Positions 7,209-54,043 of a DNA stretch of 64,000 nucleotides are shown one piece after another (position 1 is the first letter of the stretch; every line of letters begins with the position of its first letter). This DNA is from Citrobacter farmeri (lineage in GTDB: Bacteria; Pseudomonadota; Gammaproteobacteria; Enterobacterales; Enterobacteriaceae), in the NCBI RefSeq assembly GCF_019048065.1, contig NZ_CP077291.1, positions 3,968,001-4,032,000 on the forward strand, given 5' to 3'. The notes beneath the pieces were generated by a model. The model searched no databases and was not told the DNA's origin. It saw only the letters and a program-made list of their open reading frames with translations. The translations under genes were made by a program, and so were the position numbers.

Positions 7209-7238
7209 GGCAAAAACCTCATATTCGTCGATATAAAA

Positions 7239-7277: not shown

Positions 7278-7351
7278 GATTCGTAAACACAGTAATTCGC
7301 TAAATTATCGCTGCTTAATTGCCCAGGTTCAAGTCACCCGGGCATCAGCCA

Positions 7352-35570: not shown

Positions 35571-38500
35571 GGTCAGCGTCACTGTCACACCGTTATCCGC
35601 ACTCGAAATAGTGCCTGCTGGAAGCCCATACGAAACCCAGAACCTCACGCTTCCTGCCGTTGTTCCGGCTTTCACTGTCTTGTAGTACACCCCATCCGTG
35701 GTACTGGCCAGAGCATATTCGGTTCCCGTCACAATCAGCGTGCCGTCAGTGTTTTTCAACAACGAATCCGTGCCTGCCTTTATCCTGAGACCCGTCAGAT
35801 TTTTAACCGGGTTCCCGTTCGCATCTTTAACGGTGACAACCACTTTTGTTTCGTTAGAACCGTTGGCAACCAGCGACGTGCTTGTCACCAGAGCAGTACC
35901 ATCCGTTCTGGATGACAGTCTTATCGATGTGTTGGCACTGGATGGAGTGTCCGCGACCAGATTAACCGTCACACCATTATCCGCATCCGAAATAGTGCCT
36001 CCAGGAAGGCCATACGAAACCCAGAACTTCACGCTTCCTGCCTTTGTTCCTGCTTTCACTGTCTTGTAGTACACCCCATCCGTAGTACTGGCCAGAGCAT
36101 ATTCGGTTCCCTCCGCTATCAGAGTGCCGTCAGTGTTTTTCAACAACGAACCCGTACCTGCCTTTATCCTGAGATCAGTCAGATCCTTAACCGGGTTCCC
36201 GTTCGCATCTTTAACGGTGACAACCACTCTTGTTTCGTTAGAACCATTGGCAACCATCGACGTGCTTGTCACCAGAGCAGTACCATCCGTTCTGGATGAC
36301 AGTCTTATCGATGTGTTGGCACTGGATGGAGAACCTGCCGTCAGGTTAACCGTGACATTATTACTGCCTGCAGGGATCAAGCCTTCATCCACTCCGCCCG
36401 TCACACTGAACTTGACGGTACCGGCTGTTTTTCTGGACCAAACGTTCCGGTAATACACCCCGTCAACACCTGAGGCTATCATGTCAAAATCAGTCCCTTG
36501 CGTCATCGAGACGCCACCTGAAGTCAGCAGACCGCCTCCCGACTGCGCCGCTATCTTCAGGCGCAGATCGTTAACACCGTTTCCATTCGCATCCTTCACC
36601 GTGACGACAACCCTGGTATAGCTGCTGCCATCAGCCACTATCGATTTCGTGCCCGTAAGCGCAGTACCATTCGTTTCGGATGACAGGTATATCCCGGCAA
36701 CGGACGGGTCGCCTGCCGTCAGGTTAACCGTGACATTATTCCGGCCAGTAGGAATCACGCCTGGATTGAGTCCTCTCGTCACGCTGAAGGTGACGGTGCC
36801 GCTTGTGTTTCCGGACCAAACGTTCAGGTAATACACCCCCTCAACATCTGAGGCTATCATGTCAAAATCGGTCCCTTGCGTCATTGAGACGCCGCCTGAA
36901 GTCAGCAGACCGCCTCCCGACTGTGCCGCGATCTTCAGTCCTTCCAAACCCTTGACACCGTTTCCGTTCGCATCCTTCACCGTGACAACAACCCTTGTAA
37001 AGTTGCTGTTAGCAACAGCCACTAACGATTTCGTTGACTCAAGCGCGGTACCATCCGCTTCGGATGACAGGTATATCCCGGCAACGGACGGAGCGCCCGC
37101 AGTCAGATTAACCGTCACATTATTACTGCCTGCGGGGAGCACGCCTGGATTCAGCCCATCTGTCACGCTGAACGTGACCGTGCCCGTTCTTGTTCCGGCC
37201 CACACGCTCAGGTAATACACCCCGTCCTCCGTTCCGGCCACCATGTCAAAATCGGTCCCTTGCGTCATCGATACGTTGTTTGCATTTCTCAGCAAACCGC
37301 CGCCCGACTGTGCCGCGATCTTCAGGCGCAGACCGGTAACACCGTTTCCGTTCGCATCCTCCACCTTGACAACAACTCTCGTATAGCTGCTGCCATTAGC
37401 CACTAACGATTTCGTCGCCTCAAGCCCGGTACCATCCGTTTCGGATGACAGGTATATCCCGGCTACGGACTGCTCGCCTGCCGTCAGGTTAACCGTCACA
37501 TTATTTTGGCCTGCGGGGATCACACCGGGGTTAAGTCCACCCGTCACGCTGAACTTCACGGTACCGCTTGTTGTTTGGGCCCAGACGCTCAGGTAATACA
37601 CCCCGTCCTCCGTTCCGCGCGCCATCGTAAAATCGGTCCCTTCCGTTATCGATACGCCGTTTGCATTTTTCAGCAAACCGCCGCCCGACTGCGCCGCGAT
37701 CGTCAGGGGCAGACCATTAATACCGTGCCCGTTCGCATCTCTCACCGTGACGACAACCCTGGTATACGAAGAGCTGTTGCCATCAGCCACTAACGATTTT
37801 GTCGCCTCAAGCCCGGTGCCATCCCTTTCGGATGACAGGTATATCCCGGCAACGGACTGCTCACCTGCCGCCAGGTTAATCGTGACATTATTAGTGCCAG
37901 GGGTGATAAGGTCTTGCGGCAGCCCATTAGTGACGTTGAACACGACGGTGCCGAGCGTTGTTCCGGCTTTCAGCGTCAGGTAATACACCCCATCAGCTGT
38001 ACCAGGCTCAAATCCTCCATACTCCGTTCCCCCGGCTATTTCTGTACCCGAAACGGTACTCAGTAGTCCACCTGTGCTTGTTAGTACCCTGAGCCCATCC
38101 TCCAGCCCCGTCACACCGTGTCCGTTCGCATCCTTCACTACGATCACAATATTTTTCCGATCGGTACCATTGGCTGCCAGGGTTGTGGTTCTCGACGCAA
38201 TATCGGTACCATCCGTTTCGGATGACAGGTAAACACCCGCACTGGCTGGTTCGCCGGCAGTCAGGTTGACCGTCACACTATTACTGGTAATAGCGATATC
38301 ATTTTCTGTTAATCCTGAAGTGACGCTGAATCTCACCGATCCCGTATCCGTACCTGCCACGACGGTTTTGTAATACACGCCATCCGTCGTACTGGGAACC
38401 AGGTCATATTCAGTTCCCGCCGTCATCACGCTACCTGCAATTTCCTTCATCAGAGACTGATTTGCTTTTATCTTCAGACCCGTCAGGCCAACAGCTGGTC

Positions 38501-41500
38501 TCTGATCCTGATCCTTAATAACGACAACCACTCGCGTCTGATCCGTGCCGTTTGCAGCTATCGAGATGTCACTGCTGAGATCGGTCCCGTCCGTCTCAGG
38601 TGAGAGGGAAATTGTTGCGGTGTATATCTCATACCTTACAAACGTCAAATCCGCACTGACCGGCGTATCACTTCCCAGGCTGGCGTTCACCGTAAAGGTC
38701 CCCACCACCGTACTGGTCAGCGGCACCTCCAGTTCACCATTATTGTTAGTAGTGGTACTCAGAGTGGCTGCGTTATTGCTGAACAAAGGGCCATCTGCCG
38801 GGACACTCAGCGTTACAGTATGGGTACCCGCCAGCGCGTTATTTTGCGCATCCACGACCTTCAGCGTTACTGGGTGCGGATCCGCTCCGGTCGCGGTTTT
38901 CGTGTCAGCAGAGGTTTCGATGATCAGTCGTGCCGTGCTGAGATCCGCCGCAAATGTCACCTGTGTACTGACCGCTGTACCACTCCCCAGACGGGCACTC
39001 ACCGTAAAGGTTCCCGCCACCATACTGGTCAGCGGCACCTCCAGTTCACCGTTGTCGTCAGTGTTGGCACTCAGACTCACGCCGTCATTACTGAAGAGTG
39101 GACCTGCTGTCGGCACTTCCAGCCTCACGGCACGGACGCCAGCCAGTGCGTTACCCTGCGCATCCTCGACCTTCAGCGTGACCGGATGCGAATCCGTTCC
39201 GTTCGCGGTTGTCGCGTCTGAAGATGTTTCAATAACCAGTCGTGCCGTGCTGGCATCCGCCGCAAACCTCACCTGCGCACTGACCGGTGTATTACTTCCC
39301 AGACGGGCGCTCACCGTAAAGGTTCCCGCCACCGCACTGGTCAGCGACACCTCCAGCTCACCGTTACTGTCAGTACTGGTACTCAGAGTAGCTGCGTTAT
39401 TGCTGCTGAACAGAGGACCATCTGCCGGGACACTCAGCGTCACGTTATGGACGCTGGTCAGCGGGTTACCCCGCGCATCTTCGACTTTCAGCGTGACCGG
39501 ATGCCTGTCCGTTCCATTCGCGATGGTCGCATCTGAAGACGTTTCGATAACCAGTTGTGCCGTGCTGGCATCCGCGATAAACGCGACTTCCGCGCTGCCG
39601 TTCAGCGACAGACTTGCCGCTGCGGCGGACACCGTAAAGGTTCCCGCCACGATGCTGGTCAGCGTCACCGTTACCGTGCCGTTATCATCGGTGGTACCGC
39701 TGGCTTCGCCGCTAAACGCCGGTCCGCCATTGACGGTAAAGCTCACCGGCTGGCTCTGCAGTGGGTTGCCGCCCGCATCCGTCAGCGTCGCCGTCACCGT
39801 CCGGGTGGCCGTGCCGTTTGCCGCTGCGGTTTCCTCGCTGTCAGCGGCCACGGTCAGGCGTGCCGTGCTGATATCTGCCGCGAACCTCACCTGCGCACTG
39901 ACCGGTGTATTACTTCCCAGACGGGCGCTCACCGCAAAGGTTCCCGCCACCGCACTGGTCAGCGACACCTCCAGCTCACCGTTACTGTTAGTAGTGGTAC
40001 TCAGAGTAGCTGCGTTATTGCTGCTGAACAGAGGACCATCTGCCGGGACACTCAGCGTCACGTTATGGACGCTGGTCAGCGGGTTACCCCGCGCATCTTC
40101 AACTTTTAGCGTGACCGGATGCGTATCCGTTCCGTTCGCCGTTTTCGTGTCAGAAGACGTTTCGATAATCAGCCGAGCCGTGCTGGCATCTGCCATAAAT
40201 GCCACCTCCGCACTGCCGCTCAGCGACAGATCTGTCGCCACACCGGACACCGTAAAGGTTCCCGCCACGATACTGGTCAGCGTCACCGTCACTGTGCCGT
40301 TATCATCGGTGGTACCGCTGGCTTCGCCGCTAAACGCCGGTCCGCCGTTGACGGTAAAGATCACCGGCTGGCTCTGCAGCGGGTTGTCGCCCGCATCCGT
40401 CAGCGTCGCCGTCACCGTCCGGGTGGCCGTGCCGTTCGCCGCTGCGGTTTCCTCGCTGTCAGCGGCCACGGTCAGGCGTGCCGTGCTGATATCTGCCGCG
40501 AACCTCACCTGCGCACTGACCGGTGTATTACTTCCCAGACGGGCGCTCACCGCAAAGGTTCCCGCCACCGCACTGGTCAGCGACACCTCCAGCTCACCGT
40601 TACTGTTAGTACTGGTACCCAGAGTAGCTGTGTTATTGCTGCTGAACAGAGGACCATCTGCCGGGACACTCAGCGTCACGTTATGGACGCTGGTCAGCGG
40701 GTTACCCTGCTCATCTTCGACTTTCAGCGTGACCGGATGCGTATCCGTTCCGTTCGCCGTTTTCGTGTCAGAAGACGTTTCGATAATCAGTCGTGCCGTG
40801 CTGGCATCTGCCGTAAATGCCACCTCCGCGCTGCCGCTCAGCGACAGATCTGTCGCCGTACCGGACACTGTAAAGGTCCCTGCCGTGATGCTAGTCAGCG
40901 CCACCGTTACCGTGCCGTTATCATCGGTGGTACCGCTGGCCTCTCCGCTAAACGCCGGTCCACTGTCTGCGGTAAAGCTCACCGGCTGGTTCTGCAGCGG
41001 GTTGCCGCCCGCATCCGTCAGCGTCGCCGTCACCGTCCGGGTGGCCGTGCCGTTTGCCGCTGCGGCTTCCCCGGTGTCTGCAGTCACGGTCAGTTGTGCC
41101 GTGTTGGTATCTGCCACAAACGCCACGTTCACGCTCCGGCTGCTGCCGTTGATCGACGCCGTCACGGTCACATCACCTGCCACCAGGCTGGTCAGCGACA
41201 TAGTTATAGTACCGGCACCATTGGTCGTACCGCTGGCCGCAATCGTCGCCCCGTTATCGGCGCTGAAGTTCACGACCTGGTCAGGCAAAGGGGTCCCTCG
41301 CGCATCCGTTACCGTCGCCTTCACCCGGTTGGTCGTCTCCCCGTCAGCCCACGCCCCTGTATCCACGACCTCCAGTGCCCCGGCGGCAATCTGTGCCGTA
41401 CCGGTGTCGGCCACAAACGCCACTTCCACGCTTTCACTGCTGTTGTTGATCGACGCCGTTACCGTCGAATCACCCACTACCGGACTGGTCAGCGTCATGG

Positions 41501-44500
41501 TCACCGTGCCGTCATCACCGGTTGTACCGCTGGCCGCAATTGTCGCCCCGTTATCGGCGCTGAAGTTCACGACCTGGCCGGCCAGGAGGTTCCCGTTCGC
41601 ATCCGTCACCGTCGCCTTCACGCTGTTTGGCGTCTCACCGTCCGCCAGCGCCCCGTTGATCACCCGCACCAGCGCGCCGTCGGCGAGCCGCGCCGTACTG
41701 GCGTCAGCGATAAACGCCACGCTCACGCTCCGGCTGCTGTTATTGATTGACGCCGTCACCGTGGCGTCACCCGCCACCGTGCTGGTCAGCGTCATGGTCA
41801 CCGTGCCGTCATCACCGGTCGTGCCGCTGGCCGCAATCGTCGCCCCGTTATTCACGCTGAAGTTCACGATCTGTCCGGCCAGGAGGTTCCCCTGCGCGTC
41901 CGTCACCGTCGCCTTCACGCTGTTGGGCGTCGACCCGTCCGCCAGCGCCCCGTTGGTCACCCGCACCAGGGCACCGTCGGCGATCTGCGCCGTACTGGCA
42001 TCTGCCGTAAACGTCACGCTCACGCTCCGGCTGCTGCCGTTGATCGATGCCGTCACGGTGGCGTCACCCGCCACCGGGCTGGTCAGCGTCATGGTCACCG
42101 TGCCATCGGCACCGGTCGTACCGCTGGCCGCAATCGTCGCCCCGTTATCGGCACTGAAGTTCACGACCTGACCGGTCAGGAGGTTCCCCTGCGCGTCTGT
42201 CACCGTCGCCTTCACGCTGTTGGTCGCGATATTGTTCGCCAGCGCATCGTTGATCACCCGCTCCAGGGCACCGTCGGCAATCTGTGCCGTACCGGTGTCG
42301 GCCACAAACGTCACGTTCACGCTCCGGCTGCTGCCGTTGATCGATGCCGTCACCGTGGCGTCACCCGCCACCGGGCTGGTCAGCGTCATGGTCACCGTGC
42401 CGTCATCACCGGTCGTGCCGCTGGCCGCAATCGTCGCCCCGTTATTGGCGCTGAAGTTCACGACCTGACCAGAGAGAGGGTTCCCCTGTGCGTCCGTCAC
42501 CGTCGCCTTCACGCTGTTGGGCGTCTCCCCGTCCGCCAGCGCCCCGTTGATCACCCGCTCCAGCGCGCCGTCGGCGAGCTGCGCCGTTCCGGCGTCAGCC
42601 GTGAACGTCACGCTCACGCTCCGGCTGCTGTTATTGATTGACGCCGTCACCGTGGCGTCACCCGCCACCAGGCTGGTCAGCGTCATGGTCACCGTACCGT
42701 CGGCACCGGTCGTGCCGCTGGCCGCAATCGTCGCCCCGTTATCGGCGCTGAAGTTCACCACCTGGCCGGCCAGGAGGTTCCCCTGCGCGTCCGTCACCGT
42801 CGCCTTCACGCTGTTGGTCGACGTTCCGTCCGCCAGCGCCCCGTTGATCACCCGCTCCAGGGCACCGTCAGCAATCTGTGCCGTACCGGTGTCGGCCACA
42901 AACGTCACGCTCACGCTCCGGCTGCTGCCGTTGATCGATGCCGTCACCGTGGCGTCACCCGCCACCGGGCTGATCAGCGTCATGGTCACGCTGCCGTCGC
43001 TGCCGGTCGTGCCGCTGCCGGCAATCGTCGCCCCGTTATCGGCGCTGAAGTTCACGACCTGACCGGCCAGGAGGTTCCCCTGCGCATCCGTCACCGTCGC
43101 CTTCACGCTGTTGGTCGCGATATTGTTCGCCAGCGCCCCGTTGATCACCCGCTCCAGCGCGCCGTCGGCGATCTGCCCCGTGCTGGCATCTGCCGTAAAC
43201 GTCACGTCCACGCTCCGGCTGCTGCCGTTGATCGATGCCGTTACCGTGGCATCGCCTGCCACCAGGCTGGTCAGCGTCATGGTCACGCTGCCGTCGGCAC
43301 CGGTCGTGCCGCTGGCCGCAATCGTCGCCCCGTTATCGGCGCTGAAGTTCACGATCTGGCCAGAGAGAGGGTTCCCCTGCGCGTCCGTCACCGTCGCCTT
43401 CACGCTGTTGGGCGCCGAGCCGTTCGCCACGGCATCGTTGATCACCCTTTCCAGCGCGCCATCGGCGATCTGCGCCGATCCGGCGTCGGCCGTAAAGGTC
43501 ACCCTTACGCTCTCGCTGCTGCCGTTGATCGACGCCGTTACCGTCGCCTCTCCCGCCACCGTGCTGGTCAACGTCATGATAACGCTGCCATCAGGACCGG
43601 TCGTGCCGCTGGCCGCAATACTCGCCCCGTTATCGGCGCTGAAGCTCACGACCTTGTCAGCCAGAGGGTTCCCCTCTGCGTCAGTCAGCGTCACCTTCAC
43701 GCTGTTCGGTAAAACACCATCCGCAATGGCGTTATCCGTGACCACACTGAAATCCATAGCAACAACGGAAGCAACAAAGGTCACCGGTTTACGCAGAGAA
43801 GACAGGGCTGAACCATTCACCACTGGCGCCATCCAGGCTTCGCCAGCAATATTGCCGGATACGGTGGCGACATAAACCCCGGCGCTGACTTCACGAACGC
43901 TGCTGATCGTCAGTCCACCAAGGGAGGATTCGTGTTGCAGGATCTCCGGATTCAGCGACGAGATCGGCAGACTCTGTTCGTCCATCGCGCGGAAAGTCAT
44001 CGTGGCCGTCGTGACGCCATCGGCTTCAATGATGGCAACACGGGCATTCGGATCGTCCGTAGGGACAATCTCAAAGCTTGAATTTTCAGCATGAACGGCT
44101 GACTGTTCCACAAAGATGTATGTGGAAGCCTGTGGAGAGTGGTTACCCGCTTTATCATGGGCAACCGCACTAATCACATACGTGTTAGCGTCGATTCCGC
44201 CGGTTTTCCAGAGAGGCAGGGTAACCACGCACTGCGTATTGGCTGTACAGGTCACTTCCCCGCCAGCGGCACGGAGTGCGCTGTCATCCCATACAATACG
44301 CTCAAGCCCGTGTCGGGCATTGACCACCACATCCAGGGAAAGACGATCGCCCTGATAGCCACGTAAAGCGTCGGCCATTTTCAACGTCAGGTTATTTTTC
44401 TCCCGGTACTCCAGGACAATATTGTTGTTACGATCGACCAGATGATAACGACTGCCCGCCAGGGTTCGCATCTGTCCCACGGCGTCAGTATCAAGAAGTT

Positions 44501-45554
44501 TGTGCAGAGGAGTATCAAACTGCCAGGAAAATTCCACGCCCAGACGGGTGTCATTTTCACCGCCTTCACCCATGCGATGATCGGCGCTGAGCGTCATCAA
44601 CGGGAACGGGGTGTAGCTCAGTCCTGCTGTCACTGCCCGCGGATCCTGCTGGCGATTATCCCGGCCAAAGAGGCCGACCTCGTTACCGTAGTACTGCTCA
44701 TAAACAAGTTTTCCACCCAATTGTGGATAAACCGGCAGATACCCTTCGCCGCGAATGTCCCAGCCGTTAGCCGGACGCGCTTCGTAATCGGCCAGATCGG
44801 ACGCATCTTTCCATCCTGACAGGCGAAAATAACCATTCGCCGCCAGTTTCAGATAATCCCGACCGTATTCCAGCCCCATCCCCATACGGGAGTGTTCACC
44901 TGAAAAATCATAGTCATAGAATGCGTTAACACCGGCCATCCAGTCCGGTGTGTAATAGCGATATCCGGCCCCCAGGTTTCCCTGGGTCCGGTCATCGGTG
45001 CGGTGCAAACTGTGCTGAGAAAAAAGTAACGTATCTGGACTGTCATACCAGGGGATCAGTAAATCAACGGAAGAATTTTTCAGAGAGAATTCTTCGTCAA
45101 CCTGCACTTTAACCCGCGCCGTCCCCACACGGTTAAGCCACTGTTCTATTTCAGCACTGGCTTTCCCGGTCGCCATCTGTCGGGCTATACCTGCCGCCGC
45201 ATCGCCGCTGGCATTATTCAGAAACTGCCCTGTCTTGCTTGCCAGCTGTGCCGCCTGGGTTTCCGTCGCCTTCTCGCTTTCATCCCCGCTCTTCTCATCA
45301 CCAGCAGGACTTCCCCCCAGAGTGGGGAGCTCGCTGGCTGAAGCAGAAAGCGCCTGTTGCTCTGAAGGGGTTTGATACCATTTGACCTGCGCGGCGCGCA
45401 CTGCTGGCGTGAACGCCAGCATCAGTGGCAGGAAAAATTGCAGGGCGATGTTAACCCATACCCAGAAACGAAACTGCCGGGAAAAGGAAATACCTTTCCG
45501 GGGTTCGGACTGAGTAACCCGGTGAATTTCAGAAGAATGGGGACGTGGCGACAT
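35088..45554 (-). CDS. Giant inverse autotransporter adhesin (intimin/invasin family)
   Basis: 3,488 residues in one uninterrupted frame; start at 45554 after AAGGA. Order: an extended signal region with a hydrophobic stretch (residues about 28-55, cut near AVRA); a charged periplasmic part without an evident LysM motif; the intimin-type outer-membrane beta-barrel (about 145-385, closing with HLVDRNNNIVLEYREKN); two further domains to 597; then 25 immunoglobulin-like repeats in four classes (598-3328); and a C-terminal domain (3329-3488) with two cysteines 94 residues apart. The barrel inserts in the outer membrane and the repeats hold the tip away from the cell. It is of a size with the largest known members such as YeeJ. 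Ligand unknown. Confidence 0.93.
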   Translation of the reverse strand: MSPRPHSSEIHRVTQSEPRKGISFSRQFRFWVWVNIALQFFLPLMLAFTPAVRAAQVKWYQTPSEQQALSASASELPTLGGSPAGDEKSGDESEKATETQAAQLASKTGQFLNNASGDAAAGIARQMATGKASAEIEQWLNRVGTARVKVQVDEEFSLKNSSVDLLIPWYDSPDTLLFSQHSLHRTDDRTQGNLGAGYRYYTPDWMAGVNAFYDYDFSGEHSRMGMGLEYGRDYLKLAANGYFRLSGWKDASDLADYEARPANGWDIRGEGYLPVYPQLGGKLVYEQYYGNEVGLFGRDNRQQDPRAVTAGLSYTPFPLMTLSADHRMGEGGENDTRLGVEFSWQFDTPLHKLLDTDAVGQMRTLAGSRYHLVDRNNNIVLEYREKNNLTLKMADALRGYQGDRLSLDVVVNARHGLERIVWDDSALRAAGGEVTCTANTQCVVTLPLWKTGGIDANTYVISAVAHDKAGNHSPQASTYIFVEQSAVHAENSSFEIVPTDDPNARVAIIEADGVTTATMTFRAMDEQSLPISSLNPEILQHESSLGGLTISSVREVSAGVYVATVSGNIAGEAWMAPVVNGSALSSLRKPVTFVASVVAMDFSVVTDNAIADGVLPNSVKVTLTDAEGNPLADKVVSFSADNGASIAASGTTGPDGSVIMTLTSTVAGEATVTASINGSSESVRVTFTADAGSAQIADGALERVINDAVANGSAPNSVKATVTDAQGNPLSGQIVNFSADNGATIAASGTTGADGSVTMTLTSLVAGDATVTASINGSSRSVDVTFTADASTGQIADGALERVINGALANNIATNSVKATVTDAQGNLLAGQVVNFSADNGATIAGSGTTGSDGSVTMTLISPVAGDATVTASINGSSRSVSVTFVADTGTAQIADGALERVINGALADGTSTNSVKATVTDAQGNLLAGQVVNFSADNGATIAASGTTGADGTVTMTLTSLVAGDATVTASINNSSRSVSVTFTADAGTAQLADGALERVINGALADGETPNSVKATVTDAQGNPLSGQVVNFSANNGATIAASGTTGDDGTVTMTLTSPVAGDATVTASINGSSRSVNVTFVADTGTAQIADGALERVINDALANNIATNSVKATVTDAQGNLLTGQVVNFSADNGATIAASGTTGADGTVTMTLTSPVAGDATVTASINGSSRSVSVTFTADASTAQIADGALVRVTNGALADGSTPNSVKATVTDAQGNLLAGQIVNFSVNNGATIAASGTTGDDGTVTMTLTSTVAGDATVTASINNSSRSVSVAFIADASTARLADGALVRVINGALADGETPNSVKATVTDANGNLLAGQVVNFSADNGATIAASGTTGDDGTVTMTLTSPVVGDSTVTASINNSSESVEVAFVADTGTAQIAAGALEVVDTGAWADGETTNRVKATVTDARGTPLPDQVVNFSADNGATIAASGTTNGAGTITMSLTSLVAGDVTVTASINGSSRSVNVAFVADTNTAQLTVTADTGEAAAANGTATRTVTATLTDAGGNPLQNQPVSFTADSGPAFSGEASGTTDDNGTVTVALTSITAGTFTVSGTATDLSLSGSAEVAFTADASTARLIIETSSDTKTANGTDTHPVTLKVEDEQGNPLTSVHNVTLSVPADGPLFSSNNTATLGTSTNSNGELEVSLTSAVAGTFAVSARLGSNTPVSAQVRFAADISTARLTVAADSEETAAANGTATRTVTATLTDAGDNPLQSQPVIFTVNGGPAFSGEASGTTDDNGTVTVTLTSIVAGTFTVSGVATDLSLSGSAEVAFMADASTARLIIETSSDTKTANGTDTHPVTLKVEDARGNPLTSVHNVTLSVPADGPLFSSNNAATLSTTTNSNGELEVSLTSAVAGTFAVSARLGSNTPVSAQVRFAADISTARLTVAADSEETAAANGTATRTVTATLTDAGGNPLQSQPVSFTVNGGPAFSGEASGTTDDNGTVTVTLTSIVAGTFTVSAAAASLSLNGSAEVAFIADASTAQLVIETSSDATIANGTDRHPVTLKVEDARGNPLTSVHNVTLSVPADGPLFSSNNAATLSTSTDSNGELEVSLTSAVAGTFTVSARLGSNTPVSAQVRFAADASTARLVIETSSDATTANGTDSHPVTLKVEDAQGNALAGVRAVRLEVPTAGPLFSNDGVSLSANTDDNGELEVPLTSMVAGTFTVSARLGSGTAVSTQVTFAADLSTARLIIETSADTKTATGADPHPVTLKVVDAQNNALAGTHTVTLSVPADGPLFSNNAATLSTTTNNNGELEVPLTSTVVGTFTVNASLGSDTPVSADLTFVRYEIYTATISLSPETDGTDLSSDISIAANGTDQTRVVVVIKDQDQRPAVGLTGLKIKANQSLMKEIAGSVMTAGTEYDLVPSTTDGVYYKTVVAGTDTGSVRFSVTSGLTENDIAITSNSVTVNLTAGEPASAGVYLSSETDGTDIASRTTTLAANGTDRKNIVIVVKDANGHGVTGLEDGLRVLTSTGGLLSTVSGTEIAGGTEYGGFEPGTADGVYYLTLKAGTTLGTVVFNVTNGLPQDLITPGTNNVTINLAAGEQSVAGIYLSSERDGTGLEATKSLVADGNSSSYTRVVVTVRDANGHGINGLPLTIAAQSGGGLLKNANGVSITEGTDFTMARGTEDGVYYLSVWAQTTSGTVKFSVTGGLNPGVIPAGQNNVTVNLTAGEQSVAGIYLSSETDGTGLEATKSLVANGSSYTRVVVKVEDANGNGVTGLRLKIAAQSGGGLLRNANNVSMTQGTDFDMVAGTEDGVYYLSVWAGTRTGTVTFSVTDGLNPGVLPAGSNNVTVNLTAGAPSVAGIYLSSEADGTALESTKSLVAVANSNFTRVVVTVKDANGNGVKGLEGLKIAAQSGGGLLTSGGVSMTQGTDFDMIASDVEGVYYLNVWSGNTSGTVTFSVTRGLNPGVIPTGRNNVTVNLTAGDPSVAGIYLSSETNGTALTGTKSIVADGSSYTRVVVTVKDANGNGVNDLRLKIAAQSGGGLLTSGGVSMTQGTDFDMIASGVDGVYYRNVWSRKTAGTVKFSVTGGVDEGLIPAGSNNVTVNLTAGSPSSANTSIRLSSRTDGTALVTSTSMVANGSNETRVVVTVKDANGNPVKDLTDLRIKAGTGSLLKNTDGTLIAEGTEYALASTTDGVYYKTVKAGTKAGSVKFWVSYGLPGGTISDADNGVTVNLVADTPSSANTSIRLSSRTDGTALVTSTSLVANGSNETKVVVTVKDANGNPVKNLTGLRIKAGTDSLLKNTDGTLIVTGTEYALASTTDGVYYKTVKAGTTAGSVRFWVSYGLPAGTISSADNGVTVTLTTPPPATAQINAWWSYQGGSNGSTYREFSSAVRFLTSAGTPMQCDSVTVVGNGGTGFAANANTTMANRHTFAASYWSNDSSTFNANTKTYSFSKRTSVYQNGGAGNTFSVVLAASGQISYPVVGVGMLGGGDLLTFSCRVGSTTYSFKSSNNNMTVNSSLF
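35571..38615 (-). repeat. Class D repeats, 8 units of about 127 residues
   Basis: Residues 2314-3328. Units carry a start like IYLSSETDGT, a middle VVVTVKDANGNGV and an end NNVTVNLTAG. D3 to D6 are closest to one another; D7 and D8 form a near-identical pair beginning SIRLSSRTDGTALV. Longer than standard Big-1 domains. Confidence 0.85.
38616..41096 (-). repeat. Class B and C repeats, order B-C-B-C-B-C-C-C
   Basis: Residues 1487-2313, eight units of about 103 residues. B units contain ANGTATRTVTATLTDAG; C units contain HPVTLKVEDARGNPLTSVHN. The B-C dimer recurs as a 206-codon, 618-base unit: the tract at 39841 reappears nearly base for base at 40459. Confidence 0.88.
41097..43763 (-). repeat. 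Class A repeats, 9 Big-1-type units of about 99 residues
   Basis: Residues 598-1486. Typical unit: QIADGALERVINGALADG, NSVKATVTDAQGN, VVNFSADNGATIAASGTTG, VTMTLTSPVAGDATVTASI. Nucleotide identity between units is very high in blocks, so recombination or assembly errors could change copy number. Confidence 0.9.
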
Positions 45555-46794
45555 GTGTTTTATCCTTATAACTTTTCTACTTAATCCTGGTAACCTGTTT
45601 TACAGATGCGATTTGTCAAAAAAACTAATTTCCCAGTTGCATCAGGCTGTTACTAATTTTCTGTACGTATATATACGTGGCGTTGTTTTGTCATTAATCA
45701 GAAAGAACCCTTTATCTTTGGCGTGTATAAATAGTTCATTCCTGAAAGAAAATTTATAAAACCTTCTTTCTATATTTTATATATCCTGCCTCGGGCAGTA
45801 ACAGAAAATACAGAACGGCGAAATCGATAAGAAACCAAATTATTTACCTAAATTTCTTTAAGCATTATAAGTCTCAATAGTGTTGTTTAAATCCGGGTTA
45901 TTGAATAAGCATTACAGAAGTAAAACAAACTGCCAAATCAAATAAACACAGGATAAAACACCACAAAATAAGTAATAAATAGATTATAAATTCAAAATGG
46001 CAATAAATATGATGTCAACCGTTCAGAAATAAGGACTTATTCCCATGAAGATATAAACGTTTTTATCTACATAAATTTAAATAATAATTTCATTGTTACT
46101 GGAGCGTTAAAATAATTAACAGCGAATGTTATTTACTTTTTTCATACTCTATTTACGTTGAATTTCTCCGTCACCTTTTGAAAACTATCGCCACAAAATG
46201 TGTTTGCCTGTAGCAAAATAGAGCCCGGACATTCCTCACACATATTCAAATTCCGAAAATAATCGCGACGCGCCTTTGCCGGTTCGTGGAACGCAGCAAA
46301 CAAAAAGTGCACTAAAATACCGGTTGTTTCCCAGGGTAAATACCAACTGCTACTGCGCATAAACGGGTATATCTGGACGCGTCAGACACTTGTTATCATT
46401 TCATTGCCGCCCTGACTCGGCAGAAAGCGTCCGGGAACCAGTATCTCAAAACGACAGCATAGCAATGCCACACCGCCAAAACAAAAGATAAATCAAATAA
46501 AACAATTGTATTCCTCTGAAACAATATTATGACTGCCACTCTACTTTCCCCTCCGCCAGACGTTACCTGAACAATCCGCACCCCTCTCTTAAAATCAATA
46601 AAAACACCTTTATTACAATAAGTTAAATAAAAAAACGATCCTGGGACTCATGAAGAATCGGCAATCTCATGCAAGATAGCTCGAATTATCTCCGGTTCAA
46701 AAAATCTACATGCATCACAAACATGCTTACATTTGATAATGTATAGTTTTCATATGACAAGCAATGACTATTCTTGTGTACAAGGAGAACTGTT
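45555..46794. other. AT-rich gap between adhesin and kinase genes
   Basis: 1,240 bases between divergent genes. Strongly AT-rich, with a likely adhesin promoter on the left and the kinase-operon promoter on the right. Two minus-strand open frames (46142-46360, 72 codons; 46396-46581, 61 codons) have no recognisable product; they could be remnants. Near the right end, ACATTTGATAATGT (46729-46742) is an inverted repeat overlapping a possible -10 element, a candidate operator for the SorC-family regulator. Confidence 0.5.
45665..45678. promoter_or_regulatory. Perfect palindrome upstream of the giant adhesin
   Basis: ACGTATATATACGT is a 14-base perfect palindrome centred about 117 bases before the adhesin start, in its likely promoter region. 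No regulator can be assigned. Confidence 0.35.
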
Positions 46795-48054
46795 ATGACG
46801 GATTCAATTCCATCAGGTTACAAACCGCTGACATGTGACACCCTGCCTGGCTATCTCTCATCCAGACTGACCCCTGCATGCGAACCTGGAGGGTTGCCTG
46901 AAGAGTGGAAAGTTTCAGAAGTGGGGGACGGAAACCTGAACATGGTGTTTATTGTTGAGGGGGCGAATAAAACGATCATTGTAAAACAGGCTCTGCCCTG
47001 GCTTCGCGCAGGGGGAGAAGGATGGCCTTTATCTCTGAGCCGTGCAGGTTTTGAGTACAATGTCTTATGTCAGGAAGCCAAGTACGCGGGCCATACACTG
47101 ATACCACAGGTCTATTTTTACGACCCGGATATGGCACTGTTTGCCATGGAGTACCTGACGCCACACGTCATTCTTCGTAAGGAGCTGATCAACGGTAAAA
47201 AATTTCCAAAACTTGCTGAAGATATCGGAACATTTTTAGCCCAAACCCTCTTCCACACTTCCGACATTGGCATGCCGGCCGATCGGAAAAAAGCGCTTAC
47301 CGCAGAATTCGCCTTGAATCATGAGCTGTGCAAAATAACGGAAGACCTGATCTTCAGTGAGCCCTATTACAACGCTGAACGGAATGACTGGACCTCTCCT
47401 GAACTGGACGATGCCGTCCATAACGCCTGGGCTGATACAGAGATGCTCCAGGTCGCCATGCGTTATAAGTACAAATTTATGACGGAAGCGCAGGCATTGT
47501 TACATGGCGATCTTCATTCAGGTTCAATCATGGTGACCGACACGGATACCAAAGTGATTGATCCAGAATTCGGTTTCATGGGGCCAATGGCGTTTGATAT
47601 CGGCAACTATATCGGGAATCTTCTGTTAGCTTTCTTCTCACGTCCTGGATGGGATGCGAATGAGCAAAGCCGCACCGCTTATCAGGAATGGCTACTTCAG
47701 CAGATTGTAGAGACCTGGTCTGTTTTCACCCGGGAGTTCCGCCAATTGTGGAACAACAAAACACAGGGCGAAGCATGGCCAACAGAAATATATCAACAGA
47801 ACAAGGCCGCACTGAAGGACGCGCAGGATCAGTTTTTTGCAACGCTGCTTGAAGATTCTCTGGTAAACGCCGGCATGGAAATGAATCGCCGGATTATCGG
47901 TTTTGCTGGCGTTGCCGAGCTAAAACTGATTGAAAATACAGCGCTTCGCGCAGAATGTGAACGACGTGCATTGACCATGGCACGCGATCTTATCGTCAAT
48001 GCCCGCCAGTTTAAAAATATGGATTCCGTCATCCAGTCTGCGAAGGTTAAGTAA
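46795..48054 (+). CDS. mtnK: 5-methylthioribose/5-deoxyribose kinase (MtnK family)
   Basis: 419 residues from ATG 46795, preceded by AAGGAG seven bases away. A protein-kinase-like sugar kinase: catalytic loop HGDLHSGS at 237-244 (Asp239), metal-binding DPEFGFMGP at 256-264, and a nucleotide-binding region around VGDGNLNMVF. MtnK phosphorylates C1 of 5-methylthioribose, and in the dihydroxyacetone-phosphate shunt also 5-deoxyribose. It is the first gene of a four-gene plus-strand run, with mtnA 9 bases later. Confidence 0.9.
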   Translation: MTDSIPSGYKPLTCDTLPGYLSSRLTPACEPGGLPEEWKVSEVGDGNLNMVFIVEGANKTIIVKQALPWLRAGGEGWPLSLSRAGFEYNVLCQEAKYAGHTLIPQVYFYDPDMALFAMEYLTPHVILRKELINGKKFPKLAEDIGTFLAQTLFHTSDIGMPADRKKALTAEFALNHELCKITEDLIFSEPYYNAERNDWTSPELDDAVHNAWADTEMLQVAMRYKYKFMTEAQALLHGDLHSGSIMVTDTDTKVIDPEFGFMGPMAFDIGNYIGNLLLAFFSRPGWDANEQSRTAYQEWLLQQIVETWSVFTREFRQLWNNKTQGEAWPTEIYQQNKAALKDAQDQFFATLLEDSLVNAGMEMNRRIIGFAGVAELKLIENTALRAECERRALTMARDLIVNARQFKNMDSVIQSAKVK

Positions 48055-48063
48055 GAGGTCATT

Positions 48064-49164
48064 ATGAATATTAAAGGTAAACACTACCGTACGGTCTGGG
48101 TTTCCGGGGATGGAAAAGCGGTAGAAATCATCGATCAGACCAGGTTGCCTTTTAAGTTTGAGGTGGTGGCGCTTACCTCTGCGGAGATGGCCGCAACGGC
48201 TATTCAGGAAATGTGGGTTCGCGGCGCCCCGCTTATTGGTGTCGTTGCAGCATACGGTATCGCGTTGGGTATGAATCACGACGCCAGTGATAAGGGTCTG
48301 CAGTGTTACTATGACCTTCTCATCAAGACTCGTCCGACGGCAATTAACCTTAAATGGGCTCTCGACAGGGTGGTCGCTACACTGAAAGATCTTTCCGTAC
48401 CCGATCGTAAGGATGCAGCCTGGGCGCTCGCGGCAGAAATTGCCGAGGAAGATGTCGCGTTATGTGAACAAATTGGATTACATGGTGCAGAGGTCATCCG
48501 CGAAATAGCCCAGAAAAAACCGGCCGGGAGTGTGGTCAATATCCTGACGCACTGTAACGCAGGCTGGTTAGCAACTGTAGACTGGGGAACAGCGCTTTCT
48601 CCCATTTATAAAGCACATGAAAACGGAATTCCCGTTCATGTCTGGGTGGATGAAACGCGGCCGCGCAATCAGGGTGGGCTCACGGCATTTGAACTGGGCT
48701 CACATGGTATTCCTCATACCTTGATTGCCGATAATGCGGGTGGTCACTTGATGCAGCATGGTGACATTGATCTCTGCATTGTGGGTACCGACCGAACGAC
48801 AGCCAGAGGGGATGTCTGTAATAAAATAGGCACCTATCTTAAGGCACTGGCAGCCCATGATAACCATGTCCCCTTTTACGTCGCTTTACCTTCACCCACC
48901 ATTGACTGGACCATCGAAGACGGAAAAACCATTCCGATTGAGCAACGTGACGGAAAAGAACAGTCGCATGTCTACGGGATAAACCCTCAGGGAGAGTTGA
49001 GCTGGGTTAATACTGCCCCCGAAGGAACCCGTTGTGGAAACTACGCTTTCGACGTCACGCCTGCCAGATATATTACTGGCCTCATTACTGAACGGGGAGT
49101 CTGTGCTGCGAATGAGTCAGCCCTGGCGGGTATGTTTGCTGACCTGAAGAGTAAAGCGCGCTAG
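48064..49164 (+). CDS. mtnA: Methylthioribose-1-phosphate isomerase (MtnA family)
   Basis: 366 residues. Isomerises the aldose 1-phosphate to the ketose 1-phosphate. Catalytic residues of the family are present: cysteine 164 in LTHCNAG and aspartate 243 in [17 protein letters not shown], with the substrate loop [18 protein letters not shown]. It follows mtnK closely and precedes an aldolase, which matches the order of reactions. Confidence 0.93.
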
Positions 49165-49203
49165 CGGCATTGAAGCGATTTTCACTGCTGTTAAGGAGCA
49201 GGA

Positions 49204-49845
49204 ATGGAAAGGAAAAAGTTAGCAGAAAATATCATTTCCACTTGTCGGGAAATGAATGCTTCAGGTCTTAATCAAGGAACCTCTGGTAATGTGAGTGCCA
49301 GATATGCCGGTGGCATGTTGATTACACCGAGTGGGATCGCCTATTCAAAGATGACGCCGGACATGATTGTCTTTGTAGACGATAAGGGAATACCAGAAGC
49401 GGGTAAAATACCGTCAAGTGAATGGTTATTTCATCTGGCGTGTTATCAAGCCAGGCCAGAACTGAATGCCGTCATACACACGCATGCGGTCAATTCCACG
49501 GCGGTGGCAATACTGAATCATTCAATTCCGGCAATTCATTATATGATGGCGGTAACGGGTACGGATCATATTCCCTGTATTCCCTATCATACCTTTGGTA
49601 GTTCTGAACTGGCCGATAGCGTAGCGAAGGGGATAAGAGAAAGTAAATCCTTGCTTATGCAGCACCACGGTATGCTGGCCATGGAGGTCTCACTGGAAAA
49701 AACGCTGTGGCTGGCGGGTGAAACCGAGACGCTGGCGGATTTATACATCAAGTGTGGCGGATTACATCACGATGTTCCCGTATTGTCTGAAGCCGAAATG
49801 ACCGTCGTCCTTGAAAAATTTAAAACGTATGGTTTGAAAGCGTAA
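49204..49845 (+). CDS. Class II aldolase, fuculose-phosphate aldolase family
   Basis: 213 residues of the FucA/AraD fold. Zinc ligands H92, H94 (HTHAV) and H155 (QHHGML) and the proton-donor glutamate E73 (SSEWLFH) lie at the same positions as in E. coli FucA. Next to mtnK-mtnA the predicted reaction is cleavage of 5-deoxyribulose 1-phosphate, or its methylthio form, into dihydroxyacetone phosphate and an aldehyde, the role called Ald2 in the published shunt. True fucose or rhamnose genes are absent here. Confidence 0.88.
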   Translation: MERKKLAENIISTCREMNASGLNQGTSGNVSARYAGGMLITPSGIAYSKMTPDMIVFVDDKGIPEAGKIPSSEWLFHLACYQARPELNAVIHTHAVNSTAVAILNHSIPAIHYMMAVTGTDHIPCIPYHTFGSSELADSVAKGIRESKSLLMQHHGMLAMEVSLEKTLWLAGETETLADLYIKCGGLHHDVPVLSEAEMTVVLEKFKTYGLKA

Positions 49846-49947
49846 TCACAGTTTTATTTTAATTAAACAACATGACAGCCATTCGCAGAATGGCTGCTAT
49901 CTCCCCTGTCCACAACGATTGATTATAACTACCACAAGGAGTTATTT

Positions 49948-50952
49948 ATGTTTATCGTGGAATCGTATTCTGTCGCCATAATAATGTGTTTTATCACCAT
50001 GATTTGCTGGGGTTCATGGGCTAATACCACCAAACTGGTAAGCAATAAAAAATGGGAGTTTCCGCTTTTCTATTGGGATTATTCAATTGGATTATTACTG
50101 TGTTCCTTGTTATTTGCCTTCACTCTGGGTTCTTTAGGTGAAGCCGGGCGCAGCTTTATACCTGATATTCAGCAGGCGAGCAGCAGTAGTCTGCTGTCGG
50201 CAATACTGGCAGGGATTATCTTCAATATCTCCAATATTCTTCTGGTGGCTTCTATTAATCTTGCCGGTATGGCGGTGGCCTTCCCTGTGGGTGTGGGGCT
50301 GGCACTGGCTCTGGGGGTTATCACCACCTATATCGGCAATCCGCAGGGCGATCCGCTCATTCTGTTCCTCGGTGTCGCCTGCGTCGTGGTCGCCATTATT
50401 TTCACCGCGGTGGCTTATGGTCGGGTCACCCAGGAGTCTGACAAATCCCGTCGTAACAAAGGTCTCATCACCGCCATTCTGGCGGGTATCATCATGGGAT
50501 GGTTTTTCCGCTTCCTGGCGGACTCCATGTCTGACAATTTCAGCCAGCCCGCAAGCGGTCTGATGACGCCATACTCCGCGCTTGTCCTGTTTGCTTTGGG
50601 GCTGTTTCTGTCAAACTTTGTCCTTAACACGCTGGTCATGAAAAAACCGATTTCAGGAGAACCGGTTAACGGGAAAATGTATTTCTCCGGTAGTTTACGG
50701 GACCATGTTTGCGGTTGGCTGGGCGGTATGATTTGGTGTGTTGGTCTGGCATTTAGTCTGATTGCGTCTGGTCAGGCGGGGTATGCTATTTCTTACGGCC
50801 TGGGACAGGGTGCGACAATGATTGCCGTGATCTGGGGAGTATTCATCTGGAGAGAATTTGCCAGCGCGCCAGCCGGCACCAATAAACTGCTGCTGACCAT
50901 GTTTATTTCATACATTGTGGGCATTGTTCTTATTATCGCCGCTAATCAGTAA
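49948..50952 (+). CDS. Sugar/nucleoside-type transporter, drug/metabolite-transporter superfamily
   Basis: 334 residues with about ten membrane segments. The N-terminal motif MICWGSWANTTKL and FYWDYSIGLLL resemble the glucose/ribose porter and ureide-permease branches of the superfamily, and the general layout resembles RhaT. It is 102 bases after the aldolase with its own AAGGAG. Context predicts uptake of 5-deoxyribose, methylthioribose or the parent nucleosides; the substrate is inference. Confidence 0.82.
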   Translation: MFIVESYSVAIIMCFITMICWGSWANTTKLVSNKKWEFPLFYWDYSIGLLLCSLLFAFTLGSLGEAGRSFIPDIQQASSSSLLSAILAGIIFNISNILLVASINLAGMAVAFPVGVGLALALGVITTYIGNPQGDPLILFLGVACVVVAIIFTAVAYGRVTQESDKSRRNKGLITAILAGIIMGWFFRFLADSMSDNFSQPASGLMTPYSALVLFALGLFLSNFVLNTLVMKKPISGEPVNGKMYFSGSLRDHVCGWLGGMIWCVGLAFSLIASGQAGYAISYGLGQGATMIAVIWGVFIWREFASAPAGTNKLLLTMFISYIVGIVLIIAANQ

Positions 50953-50956
50953 AACG

Positions 50957-50980
50957 CTGCCCCATATCCACATGGGGCAG
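50957..50980. terminator. Bidirectional terminator, transporter-regulator
   Basis: CTGCCCCAT / ATGGGGCAG stem between the convergent transporter and SorC-family genes, with T-rich flank on the plus strand. Confidence 0.8.
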
Positions 50981-50992
50981 TTGTTCATTCTT

Positions 50993-51979
50993 TTACTGCG
51001 GTAACTGACACGCCAGTAAAAATTCTGCTGTGCCTTCATCAACAATCAGATCCGTGACATACCCCCCCAGCAGGGCACCCAGCGTCGCGTCATAGCCTCT
51101 TTCCCCACCAGCAAGAAAGATCTTCCGTTCAATCTGCCTTAACTGAGCCAGACTGATCCCCAGAATACGCTGGTCAACATCCGCCACGACGGGCATCCCT
51201 TTCTTGTCATAGAAGCGACCACAAATGACCCCCACCGCGCCTAAATCCCGATATGTCTGCATCTCCTTCTTACTCAGCACACCCACCCGAATAAGGGGAT
51301 TTTCATCAAGAGCGTTACCCACGACGAAAAAGGCTTTTGTACAACGCGTCAGAACGTCAAAATTCGATCGAATAATAGGCTCTGCCTGTAGCTCCATTGC
51401 CAGTCTGGCACTGGATACCACGGCGGGAACATGAAGAGAAGCGACACGACCAGAAAGCTTGTAGGCGATTTGCGATGAGGATTCAATAATCGTAAGGTCC
51501 GGTTGAGATGGCATGGAACCGAGCATCTGAATAACGGTGACATTCTTACATGACTTCGGCGTCATGGTTTTGCTCATCTGATGGATTGTTCTTCCCCAGG
51601 CAACCCCCAGCACATCACCATTTTCAATAACCTGATTCAGATACATTCCTCCGGCACGCGAAAGACGAGTCCGCATCAGCTTTGTATCATCACGTTTCCC
51701 GGCATGTTCGCCATCAGGCACGATAAGCACTCTCTGGAGATTGAATTTGTCGCGAATCTGCAAAGCGGCATCTATCGATCCAAAAACATTCACATCCAGG
51801 TTGATATGAACCAGGCCATTTTCGCGGGCTGTCTGCAAGTATTTGACAACCGTGACACGGGATACCCCCATGATGGCCGCAACTTCAGTCTGGCTTTTGC
51901 CTTCCTGATAGTACAGCCATGTTGCATGAAGTACGGGATCGTCATTGAACAGGCTGCTGTTGGTTTGTTCTCTATCCAC
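50993..51979 (-). CDS. SorC-family transcriptional regulator
   Basis: 328 residues. An N-terminal helix-turn-helix (KSQTEVAAIMGVSRVTVVKY, about 29-48) precedes the SorC sugar-phosphate-binding domain. Relatives such as SorC, DeoR of Bacillus and LsrR sense phosphorylated sugars. Placed convergently after the kinase-isomerase-aldolase-transporter run, it probably responds to a pathway sugar phosphate, perhaps 5-deoxyribose 1-phosphate, and acts at the operator-like site near 46,730. Effector and sign of control are unknown. Confidence 0.88.
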   Translation of the reverse strand: MDREQTNSSLFNDDPVLHATWLYYQEGKSQTEVAAIMGVSRVTVVKYLQTARENGLVHINLDVNVFGSIDAALQIRDKFNLQRVLIVPDGEHAGKRDDTKLMRTRLSRAGGMYLNQVIENGDVLGVAWGRTIHQMSKTMTPKSCKNVTVIQMLGSMPSQPDLTIIESSSQIAYKLSGRVASLHVPAVVSSARLAMELQAEPIIRSNFDVLTRCTKAFFVVGNALDENPLIRVGVLSKKEMQTYRDLGAVGVICGRFYDKKGMPVVADVDQRILGISLAQLRQIERKIFLAGGERGYDATLGALLGGYVTDLIVDEGTAEFLLACQLPQ

Positions 51980-52136
51980 TTTTGTATCCCTGTATTAGGC
52001 CGGGGAAATGCTCATCTTGACCCGGAGAGTTAATGCAGATTACCAGTTGTATGATTTTATATAGATATTTTATGCTTTTACATTAAATAAACCAGCATAC
52101 CAAATGAATGATCGACTCCGCTCCCCCAGTCTGAAA

Positions 52137-52159
52137 AAGCCGGAGATACGCCCCGGCTT
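52137..52159 (-). terminator. gss terminator
   Basis: AAGCCGG / CCGGCTT stem followed on the minus strand by TTTTTC, 25 bases after the gss stop. Confidence 0.75.
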
Positions 52160-52183
52160 ATTCAGTTCCTTACGCGAGATGAC

Positions 52184-54043
52184 TCACTCCTTCAGTACTA
52201 TCAGCGGTTCGATATCGCTCTCTTTTTTGATAACCAGTGATTCATCGCCGCGCAGACAGGTGCCGCCGTAGTTTCCACCGACGGTAAAGGTGCACACCTG
52301 AATATACTTACCGGCAACGTTTGGCAGGCACCACAGCTGCTGATAAATGTTCTTCTGCTCAGCAAATTTTCCGCTGGTTTTATCCAGCAACTCTTCCTGA
52401 TGGCTGACCAGATCGATATTGCTCCCACAGCGTCCGGCAATCGGTTTCACCGCATACCCGGTTTGCGCCAGTTCCTCGTTGACGATGAAATCGGTATCCA
52501 GCAGGTAGCGGTGATGCGGGAAAAGTTGCCAGAGGATCGGCAGAATCGCTTTGTTACCCGGGATCACCGTCCACAGCGGCTCGAAGACCAGCACTTCCGG
52601 GCGCAGCAGCACATCAATCAGCCGTACATCCTGATCGGTATGCCCGGTTCGAATCGGCACAGCGGCATACTCGGTTTCGCTGACTTCGCGCACCTGCTCA
52701 ATCGCCGTTTCCCACGCCCAGGTTTTCCAGACGCAGTTCACCAGGCGTCCGTCGCCATCAATCAACTGACCGGCATCATCCCAACGCAACTCATCCAGCC
52801 CACGCAGGATCTTACTTTCAAACCCCGCCTGATGCAGCGCCTGCTGCATAAACTGTGCGTGGTAGTTCTCCTCGATATCCTTATCCTGCATGATGTGCAC
52901 AAAAGGTCGCGCGTGACTGTGTTTCCAGGCGCCTGCCAGCTCGTTAATCAGCCCTTCAGCCGGGTTATGCCCCAACCCTTTATAACCCTGCTCCGCCCAG
53001 CGCTCGAGAATTAGCCCCGCCTCGGTATGACACGATGCGGAATCGGCGTTGTATTCGTACACCTTCAGCCCACGCTCATCCATACAGAAATCCATACGAC
53101 CGGTGATCATATGGTGGCGGCGACGCTGCCAGGAGAGTCGCAAACGCGGCCAGAGAATTTTGGGAATGTCGAACAGCGCCAGCAGGTTATCATCTTTCAA
53201 CACCTTGTCTGTGGCGTGCAGATACATCAGATGCAGCTCGTTGGTCGCTTTGATCAACTCCTGCTCGGCACTCTCTGTAATTGTGAAATACTGGTACGGA
53301 TCCTGATTGATCACGTGACCGTTCGCCATCACATAGGCTTTTTGCAGCGGATCCTGTTCGTCCAGCCACTTACCGTCGAACAGCCCCTTTTCTTCCAGTC
53401 TTGCCGCACCAATCTTCAGCGAATCATTGGCGATCTCCGGCTGCGCCAGGCTGTGTTCGGTATCGTCGGTCTGGATCATCCAGCCAAGAATGGTGGTGTC
53501 GTCGAAAGTGTCTTTCAGGGTATAGCGGCCATTTTCCACCACCATCTCCAGCTCACGCGTCCACTGCTGTCCGGGAGGAAGCGGGGTGTGAATGACGTTC
53601 TGCTCGGCAATGCGGATTTTGTTGTCCAGCAGTTGAGTGATAATCGCGACGTGGCCGGTGTCTTTAAACTCACCGCCTTTCTGCCAGATGAGCAACGCCC
53701 CGGCGACCGGCGCGCGGGGCGACCCGTTAGGAAACGCCTGCAATGGCAGAATGTTGTCGTTCACCACTTCGCGCAGAAAACGCAGCGAAAAGATCTCCCA
53801 CGCCATGCCGACGTCGGTGAACACCGCACCATAATTCAGGAAGAGGAAACGGCGCGCGAATTCGACGCACTGCCATTTGTGACCCATATATTCATTGTCG
53901 ATATAGCTGCGAAATGCAGCATCATCGTCATAGTCCCGTGGGTCGAGGGAGCTGTAATCTGAAGAGTAGATCGCTACACCACCGGGGGCATAGCCCAATA
54001 ATGTCCCGAACGGGGCATCCTGACTGGTCGTTCCTTTGCTCAT
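52184..54043 (-). CDS. gss: Bifunctional glutathionylspermidine synthetase/amidase
   Basis: 619 residues, identical in length to E. coli Gss. The N-terminal CHAP-type amidase has its nucleophile Cys59 in GHKWQCVEFARR; the C-terminal ATP-grasp synthetase contains DFCMDERGLKVYEYNADSA and AGRCGSNIDLVSH. It joins glutathione to spermidine and can hydrolyse the product, tying together the glutathione and polyamine genes of this window. It marks the return to backbone order. Confidence 0.96.
   Translation of the reverse strand: MSKGTTSQDAPFGTLLGYAPGGVAIYSSDYSSLDPRDYDDDAAFRSYIDNEYMGHKWQCVEFARRFLFLNYGAVFTDVGMAWEIFSLRFLREVVNDNILPLQAFPNGSPRAPVAGALLIWQKGGEFKDTGHVAIITQLLDNKIRIAEQNVIHTPLPPGQQWTRELEMVVENGRYTLKDTFDDTTILGWMIQTDDTEHSLAQPEIANDSLKIGAARLEEKGLFDGKWLDEQDPLQKAYVMANGHVINQDPYQYFTITESAEQELIKATNELHLMYLHATDKVLKDDNLLALFDIPKILWPRLRLSWQRRRHHMITGRMDFCMDERGLKVYEYNADSASCHTEAGLILERWAEQGYKGLGHNPAEGLINELAGAWKHSHARPFVHIMQDKDIEENYHAQFMQQALHQAGFESKILRGLDELRWDDAGQLIDGDGRLVNCVWKTWAWETAIEQVREVSETEYAAVPIRTGHTDQDVRLIDVLLRPEVLVFEPLWTVIPGNKAILPILWQLFPHHRYLLDTDFIVNEELAQTGYAVKPIAGRCGSNIDLVSHQEELLDKTSGKFAEQKNIYQQLWCLPNVAGKYIQVCTFTVGGNYGGTCLRGDESLVIKKESDIEPLIVLKE

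Follow-up and report, generated by a model that had tools for sequence, protein, structure and literature searches.

The window analysed here, a 64,000-nucleotide stretch of Citrobacter farmeri DNA (contig NZ_CP077291.1, positions 3,968,001 to 4,032,000), carries at positions 46795–51979 five genes that we read as a dihydroxyacetone-phosphate shunt operon of the Escherichia coli type, with a probability of about 0.94. 5-Deoxyribose, a sugar on which such an operon acts, is a waste product of S-adenosylmethionine use. The operon gives E. coli lineages that are common in extraintestinal infection the use of such S-adenosylmethionine-derived sugars, and the window shows it in a second genus, next to gss, which points to a probable source of the E. 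coli copy. It also leads us to correct the family of the repressor and to name an alternative operator. The five genes are as follows.

46795..48054, + strand: mtnK, 5-methylthioribose/5-deoxyribose kinase (NCBIfam TIGR01767, the MTRK equivalog, 516.5 bits against a cut-off of 275; 93.6% amino acid identity to E. coli ATCC 25922)
48064..49164, + strand: mtnA, 5-methylthioribose-1-phosphate/5-deoxyribose-1-phosphate isomerase (TIGR00512, salvage_mtnA, 410.8 bits against a cut-off of 279; 95.3% to E. coli)
49204..49845, + strand: ald2, class II 5-deoxyribulose-1-phosphate/5-methylthioribulose-1-phosphate aldolase (in the Ald2 clade, support 100/100; 93.4% to E. coli Ald2)
49948..50952, + strand: GRP/ureide-permease-type transporter, probable 5-deoxypentose importer (PF07168, PF06800; 97.9% to the E. 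coli operon permease)
50993..51979, − strand: mtnR (yjhU), SorC-family repressor (PF04198, 266.3 bits; 98.2% to E. coli MtnR)

An earlier note, made from the sequence alone, had listed these genes, and its coordinates, strands and family calls are confirmed by the open reading frames (ORFs) and by Pfam and NCBIfam matches, each gene giving the expected family match. mtnK, mtnA and ald2 lie adjacent on one strand and are followed by the permease gene; the gaps among these four genes are only 9, 39 and 102 bases and are thus consistent with a single operon. The regulator is convergent, the stop codons of the transporter and mtnR genes lying at 50952 and 50993. No Rfam match for an RNA regulator was found within 45000–53000 at gathering thresholds.

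E. coli ATCC 25922 has all five genes as well, with order, orientation and promoter block unchanged. The DNA is 91.3% identical over 5,192 aligned bases and the five proteins are 93.4–98.2% identical. Huening 2024 (PMC10986504) reports that this strain grows on 5-deoxyribose, 5′-deoxyadenosine and methylthioadenosine. In the same strain mtnK-mtnA-ald2-permease is a four-gene operon that is repressed by the convergent YjhU, renamed MtnR, which also affects efeU, and the promoter is bound by CRP, which is required for growth on 5-deoxyribose (Huening 2025, PMC12632272). Growth, operon structure, repression and the role of CRP are thus known from the work of others in E. coli, and from the close identity we infer the same function for the C. 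farmeri locus. The two copies differ in their surroundings: the E. coli copy occupies the tRNA-leuX island, where yjhF follows mtnR, whereas the window locus lies between a giant surface-protein-like ORF and an intact gss. The island location describes the E. coli strains and is no functional requirement. Among 5426 complete E. coli genomes, 1591 match part or all of the 5.4-kb locus stretch and 1077 contain 80% or more of it at a single site; many of the remaining matches are the regulator alone, for example in laboratory K-12 derivatives.

The earlier note had proposed the shunt pathway, with growth on 5-deoxyribose or 5′-deoxynucleosides, and this agrees with the experiments on the E. coli orthologue. 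It had also supposed that the combination of the shunt with this transporter and a SorC sensor might be undescribed; since the same transporter, regulator and shunt are in print for ATCC 25922 (PMC12632272), that part of its interpretation falls, while the pathway and the SorC-type sensor stand. The locus is a known system, correctly read, in a new host and place.

By this reading, MtnN would release 5-deoxyribose or methylthioribose from 5′-deoxyadenosine or methylthioadenosine, and a MtnN/Pfs nucleosidase able to feed the pathway is encoded at C1:3751398-3752081 of the same genome (442 bits). Alternatively, the sugar would be taken up from outside, probably with the aid of the GRP-type transporter. 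MtnK would then add a phosphate at carbon 1, MtnA would convert the product to a 1-phospho-ketose, and Ald2 would cleave this to dihydroxyacetone phosphate and acetaldehyde (or methylthioacetaldehyde). When substrate is absent MtnR would keep the mtnK promoter off, a sugar phosphate of the pathway being its predicted effector, and CRP would bind the promoter and be needed for growth on 5-deoxyribose. The earlier note had reported the absence of later methionine-salvage genes, and for mtnB and mtnC, the two that were searched for, this holds throughout the genome: neither protein has a match over its family cut-off. The locus therefore does not belong to a universal methionine salvage pathway, in which both would be present, and its interpretation as a methionine-salvage remnant was rejected.

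MtnR and the mtnK promoter

By sequence, MtnR is a member of the SorC family close to Bacillus subtilis DeoR, as the earlier note's call of a SorC-type sensor had it. It combines a Sugar-bind domain (PF04198, 266.3 bits) with an N-terminal helix-turn-helix whose model matches stay under their own cut-offs, and its best relative of solved structure is B. subtilis DeoR (8r7y, E 2.4e-41, residues 17–321 of 328). No match to the PF08220 helix-turn-helix or to the sensor domain of the DeoR/GlpR family was obtained at E 0.001. PF08220 is the domain that we take to define that family, which includes E. coli DeoR, GlpR and FucR. MtnR has been called a DeoR-family protein and modelled on E. coli GlpR, FucR and DeoR (PMC12632272), an assignment that our domain matches correct. 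According to the further papers that we drew on (PMC13001218, PMC11229326), the operator of B. subtilis DeoR consists of two halves and the protein is a tetramer on DNA; it differs from MtnR in regulating deoxyribonucleoside use, and its dR5P effector binds covalently.

Three elements can be pointed out upstream of mtnK when six promoters are aligned.

46704..46719, + strand: CRP-like site, ATCTACATGCATCACA, with a TCACA half that is invariant in 6/6 promoters
46728..46743, + strand: candidate MtnR operator dyad O1, TACATT-TGAT-AATGTA, perfect in 5/6 promoters and with one mismatch in Providencia rettgeri
46747..46760, + strand: candidate second half-operator O2, TTTTCATATGACAA, just downstream of O1

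O2 takes the form TTGTCA-N2-TGACAA in three of the six promoters and is looser in the window, Citrobacter amalonaticus and P. rettgeri. O1 is the only perfect TACATT-N4-AATGTA in the 4.96-Mb genome, where about 0.3 would be expected by chance (an estimate that assumes equal base frequencies). A genome search for a regulon returned this one perfect site and six one-mismatch sites, against 4 for a reversed-pattern control, so we make no regulon claim. Since the six promoters include five from closely related sources and a −10-like GATAAT lies within the block, the evidence for O1 and O2 as a two-part operator of MtnR is no more than suggestive.

The recognition sequence of MtnR is stated as unknown in PMC12632272, which places the P1 start 72 bp upstream of mtnK and proposes CAAAT-N9-ATTTG over the P1 −10 region as the operator. 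We give this proposal appreciable but minority weight. Both arms occur in E. coli, Citrobacter sp. On2M and C. amalonaticus, at a spacing of 8 bases instead of 9, and the conservation of O1 could instead reflect its overlap with the GATAAT. However, the published pattern is not intact in the window and is likewise absent from P. rettgeri and another genome of the window's genus (G248), even though MtnR remains highly similar to the window protein in E. coli (98.2%), G248 (97.9%) and P. rettgeri (88.7%), whereas O1 is perfect in five of the six. For these reasons we prefer O1 and O2 as the candidate operator.

Five more distant MtnR loci (G106, G206, G093, G417 and G506) have other palindromes upstream, with no single operator consensus established among them, and no autoregulatory site upstream of mtnR was recognised by eye. 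At two loci (L032 and L044) the DNA upstream of mtnK holds a pair of TACATATGTA palindromes spaced by about 21 bp, which resemble in form the right-hand portion of the operator bound by B. subtilis DeoR.

Distribution and importer of the shunt

A MtnK match was found in 86 of 246 Enterobacteriaceae genomes and reached at least 60% identity in seven. All seven encode Ald2 (at least 68% identity) with ald2 adjacent to mtnA and mtnK, and five encode MtnR. The co-occurrence that the earlier note had asked for is therefore seen for the regulator in most of these genomes and for the transporter in two. The lower-identity MtnK/MtnA pairs of other members of the family, which we took as canonical methionine salvage, share the two enzymes with the shunt but differ in that MtnK is only 37–44% identical and mtnK and mtnA are divergent (5/5 loci); no Ald2 match was present in about 4 kb of each of these five loci.

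At the threshold used, MtnR was found in 4 of 394 genomes of the order. In two genomes from two other families of the order (G417 and G506), mtnK-mtnA-ald2 lies beside MtnR, as in the window, but an ABC ATPase, a BPD_transp_2 permease and a Peripla_BP_4 protein, together a ribose-type ABC importer, take the place of the GRP transporter. The importer is thus exchangeable, with MtnR and the enzymes as the constant part. In G417 an RbsD/FucU-type protein, a probable sugar mutarotase, is encoded between mtnR and the ABC importer (L039, 9148-9579), which suggests that this version of the shunt includes an anomer-conversion step.

The window transporter scores over the cut-offs of both Pfam Ureide_permease (PF07168, 68.5 bits) and Sugar_transport (PF06800, 30.1 bits) and is thus a GRP-type sugar transporter, as its E. 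coli orthologue is annotated; it has no relative of solved structure at a meaningful E-value. Scanning contigs for this transporter gave 10 loci, three of them shunt loci. In six of the seven others a PfkB-type sugar kinase gene lies next to it or near it, accompanied in one case by a nucleoside hydrolase gene; three of the seven (L012–L014) are near relatives of each other. At the seventh locus (L009) three neighbours were scanned and none is a sugar kinase. These neighbours suggest a family of ribose or nucleoside-sugar porters that was recruited to 5-deoxypentoses, and import of 5-deoxyribose or methylthioribose is the probable function predicted from them.

Several observations weigh against our interpretation of the locus as an operon that feeds growth with its own importer and regulator. 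The experimental evidence for function comes from E. coli. K-12 supplied with mtnK-mtnA-ald2 alone grows on 5 mM 5-deoxyribose (PMC10986504 and PMC12632272), so that the earlier note's phrase of an own transporter, right as to the presence of the gene, has to be tempered. Just two of the seven shunt-bearing genomes carry it, which makes it a variable rather than a constant component; in the window's genus, two of eight genomes have it. Finally, three of eight MtnR-bearing genomes have no close MtnK (G082, G200 and G023, the last with a stop codon interrupting mtnR), so MtnR may have other targets. The mtnR orthologues of G082 (L041) and G200 (L042) are 58.5 and 61.4% identical and have no shunt genes within 16-17 kb.

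A different role has also been considered, namely that the main function of the locus is the removal of inhibitory 5-deoxyribose, or sulfur salvage, and not the feeding of growth. Such roles are reported for the shunts of Bacillus thuringiensis or Rhodospirillum (PMC12632272, introduction). We think this improbable here, as neither role was seen in E. coli, where the orthologous operon behaves as a carbon pathway under CRP control (PMC12632272, PMC10986504).

Aldolase assignment

The aldolase gives a Pfam Aldolase_II match of 174 bits and retains E73, H92, H94 and H155 (FucA numbering), which we take to be the catalytic glutamate and the zinc ligands. In a tree of 25 rows, one branch with 100/100 support parts the Ald2 proteins (12 rows) from the FucA-side proteins (13 rows); the latter are 13 of 39 such places found and were labelled from identity and neighbours, and a homologue search with Ald2, which matched 1320 proteins, did not contribute to the tree. 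Three rows are long-branched, among them Ald2_G506, whose exact place is therefore unsure. The aldolase thus does not cluster with the FucA-side proteins, the outcome on which the earlier note had made its reading depend. It scores 324.5 bits against the fucA equivalog model, under the cut-off of 400.25, while a separate fucA gene in the same genome (C1:984070-984705, 60% identity) passes with 412.4 bits. All four scored Ald2 proteins stay under this cut-off (317.8-358 bits) and three of four FucA-side proteins exceed it; the fourth (L055) also fails, with 325.0 bits, and the cut-off by itself therefore cannot settle the assignment.

It is therefore very improbable that the locus is an operon for a true fuculose- or rhamnulose-phosphate aldolase, with mtnK and mtnA as incidental members: E. 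coli FucA is the best solved-structure relative of the aldolase over its full length and an NCBIfam subfamily model names it L-fuculose-phosphate aldolase, but we rejected this candidate on the evidence of the tree and of a fucA gene elsewhere in the genome, ald2 stands next to mtnA and mtnK in seven genomes, and the Ald2 of E. coli acts in the shunt (PMC10986504).

The gss gene and the probable source of the E. coli operon

The gene behind mtnR in the window is the following.

52184..54043, − strand: gss, glutathionylspermidine amidase/synthase, a flanking gene of which decayed 3′-end remnants travel with relocated copies of the locus

mtnR adjoins an intact gss in the window and in G248, and two other genomes of the genus (G125 and G227) have gss and no MtnK match. 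Between the window and E. coli, identity is about 85.5% in the hyb region, 83.3% in gss (1,495 bases, strain 203740) and 91.3% in the shunt. In E. coli, Citrobacter sp. On2M, C. amalonaticus and G023, a genome of another genus, the stretch behind mtnR runs into a decayed 3′ end of gss. These remnants span 72, 81, 39 and 72 aligned bases, respectively, and are 80.6, 81.5, 89.7 and 80.6% identical to gss of G248 (E-values 1e-14 to 2e-11 or better), the gss end and the intergenic DNA being collinear over 267–307 aligned bases in the four copies. The best of 1000 base-shuffled versions of the four stretches reached E 1.7e-4, and the flank of P. rettgeri gave nothing better than E 1.2.

On the simplest reading of the decayed gss ends beside relocated mtnR copies, their ancestor lay beside gss, and the gss-side copy is likely to be that ancestor. 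The four remnants do not represent four independent moves, since G023 shares the arrangement of E. coli, with yjhF behind mtnR (447/449 residues identical), and On2M has there an ORF that matches yjhF in length and start. C. amalonaticus has other neighbours and retains an intact gss at a distance of about 120 kb; E. coli also keeps gss elsewhere in its genome. In G023 the broken mtnR and the gss remnant, beside the YjhF-like permease gene, occupy 6306-8728 of the locus (L043), and mtnK, mtnA and ald2 were not found in the 18 kb around it.

A complication is that the coding blocks of E. coli and G248 are 97.0% identical (94.2–98.9% in ten 500-column windows), whereas their flanks behind mtnR are only 77.8% alike. 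Tree support is low (78, 55 and 32), and the coding block was probably exchanged again between lineages, in one direction or the other.

Taken together, we consider it fairly probable that the gss-side home is ancestral, that a segment from the mtnK promoter to the gss end moved, once to a place beside yjhF on the leuX island, that the coding block was later re-exchanged, that MtnR, a SorC protein and expected tetramer, acts on O1 and O2, and that uptake is a swappable module. Narrow searches of the open-access literature turned up one paper on the gss side, a study of copper-resistance evolution, and none on 5-deoxyribose in Citrobacter. They brought up no earlier report of the gss remnant, of the exchangeability of the importer or of the alternative operator, which are modest additions to the published system.

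Upstream of the shunt, an ORF of 3488 amino acids (35088-45554, − strand) resembles by eye an invasin/intimin-like surface protein with many repeats. It is separated from the shunt by an AT-rich spacer of 1.2 kb (35.1% G+C), and G248 has related DNA at the corresponding place.

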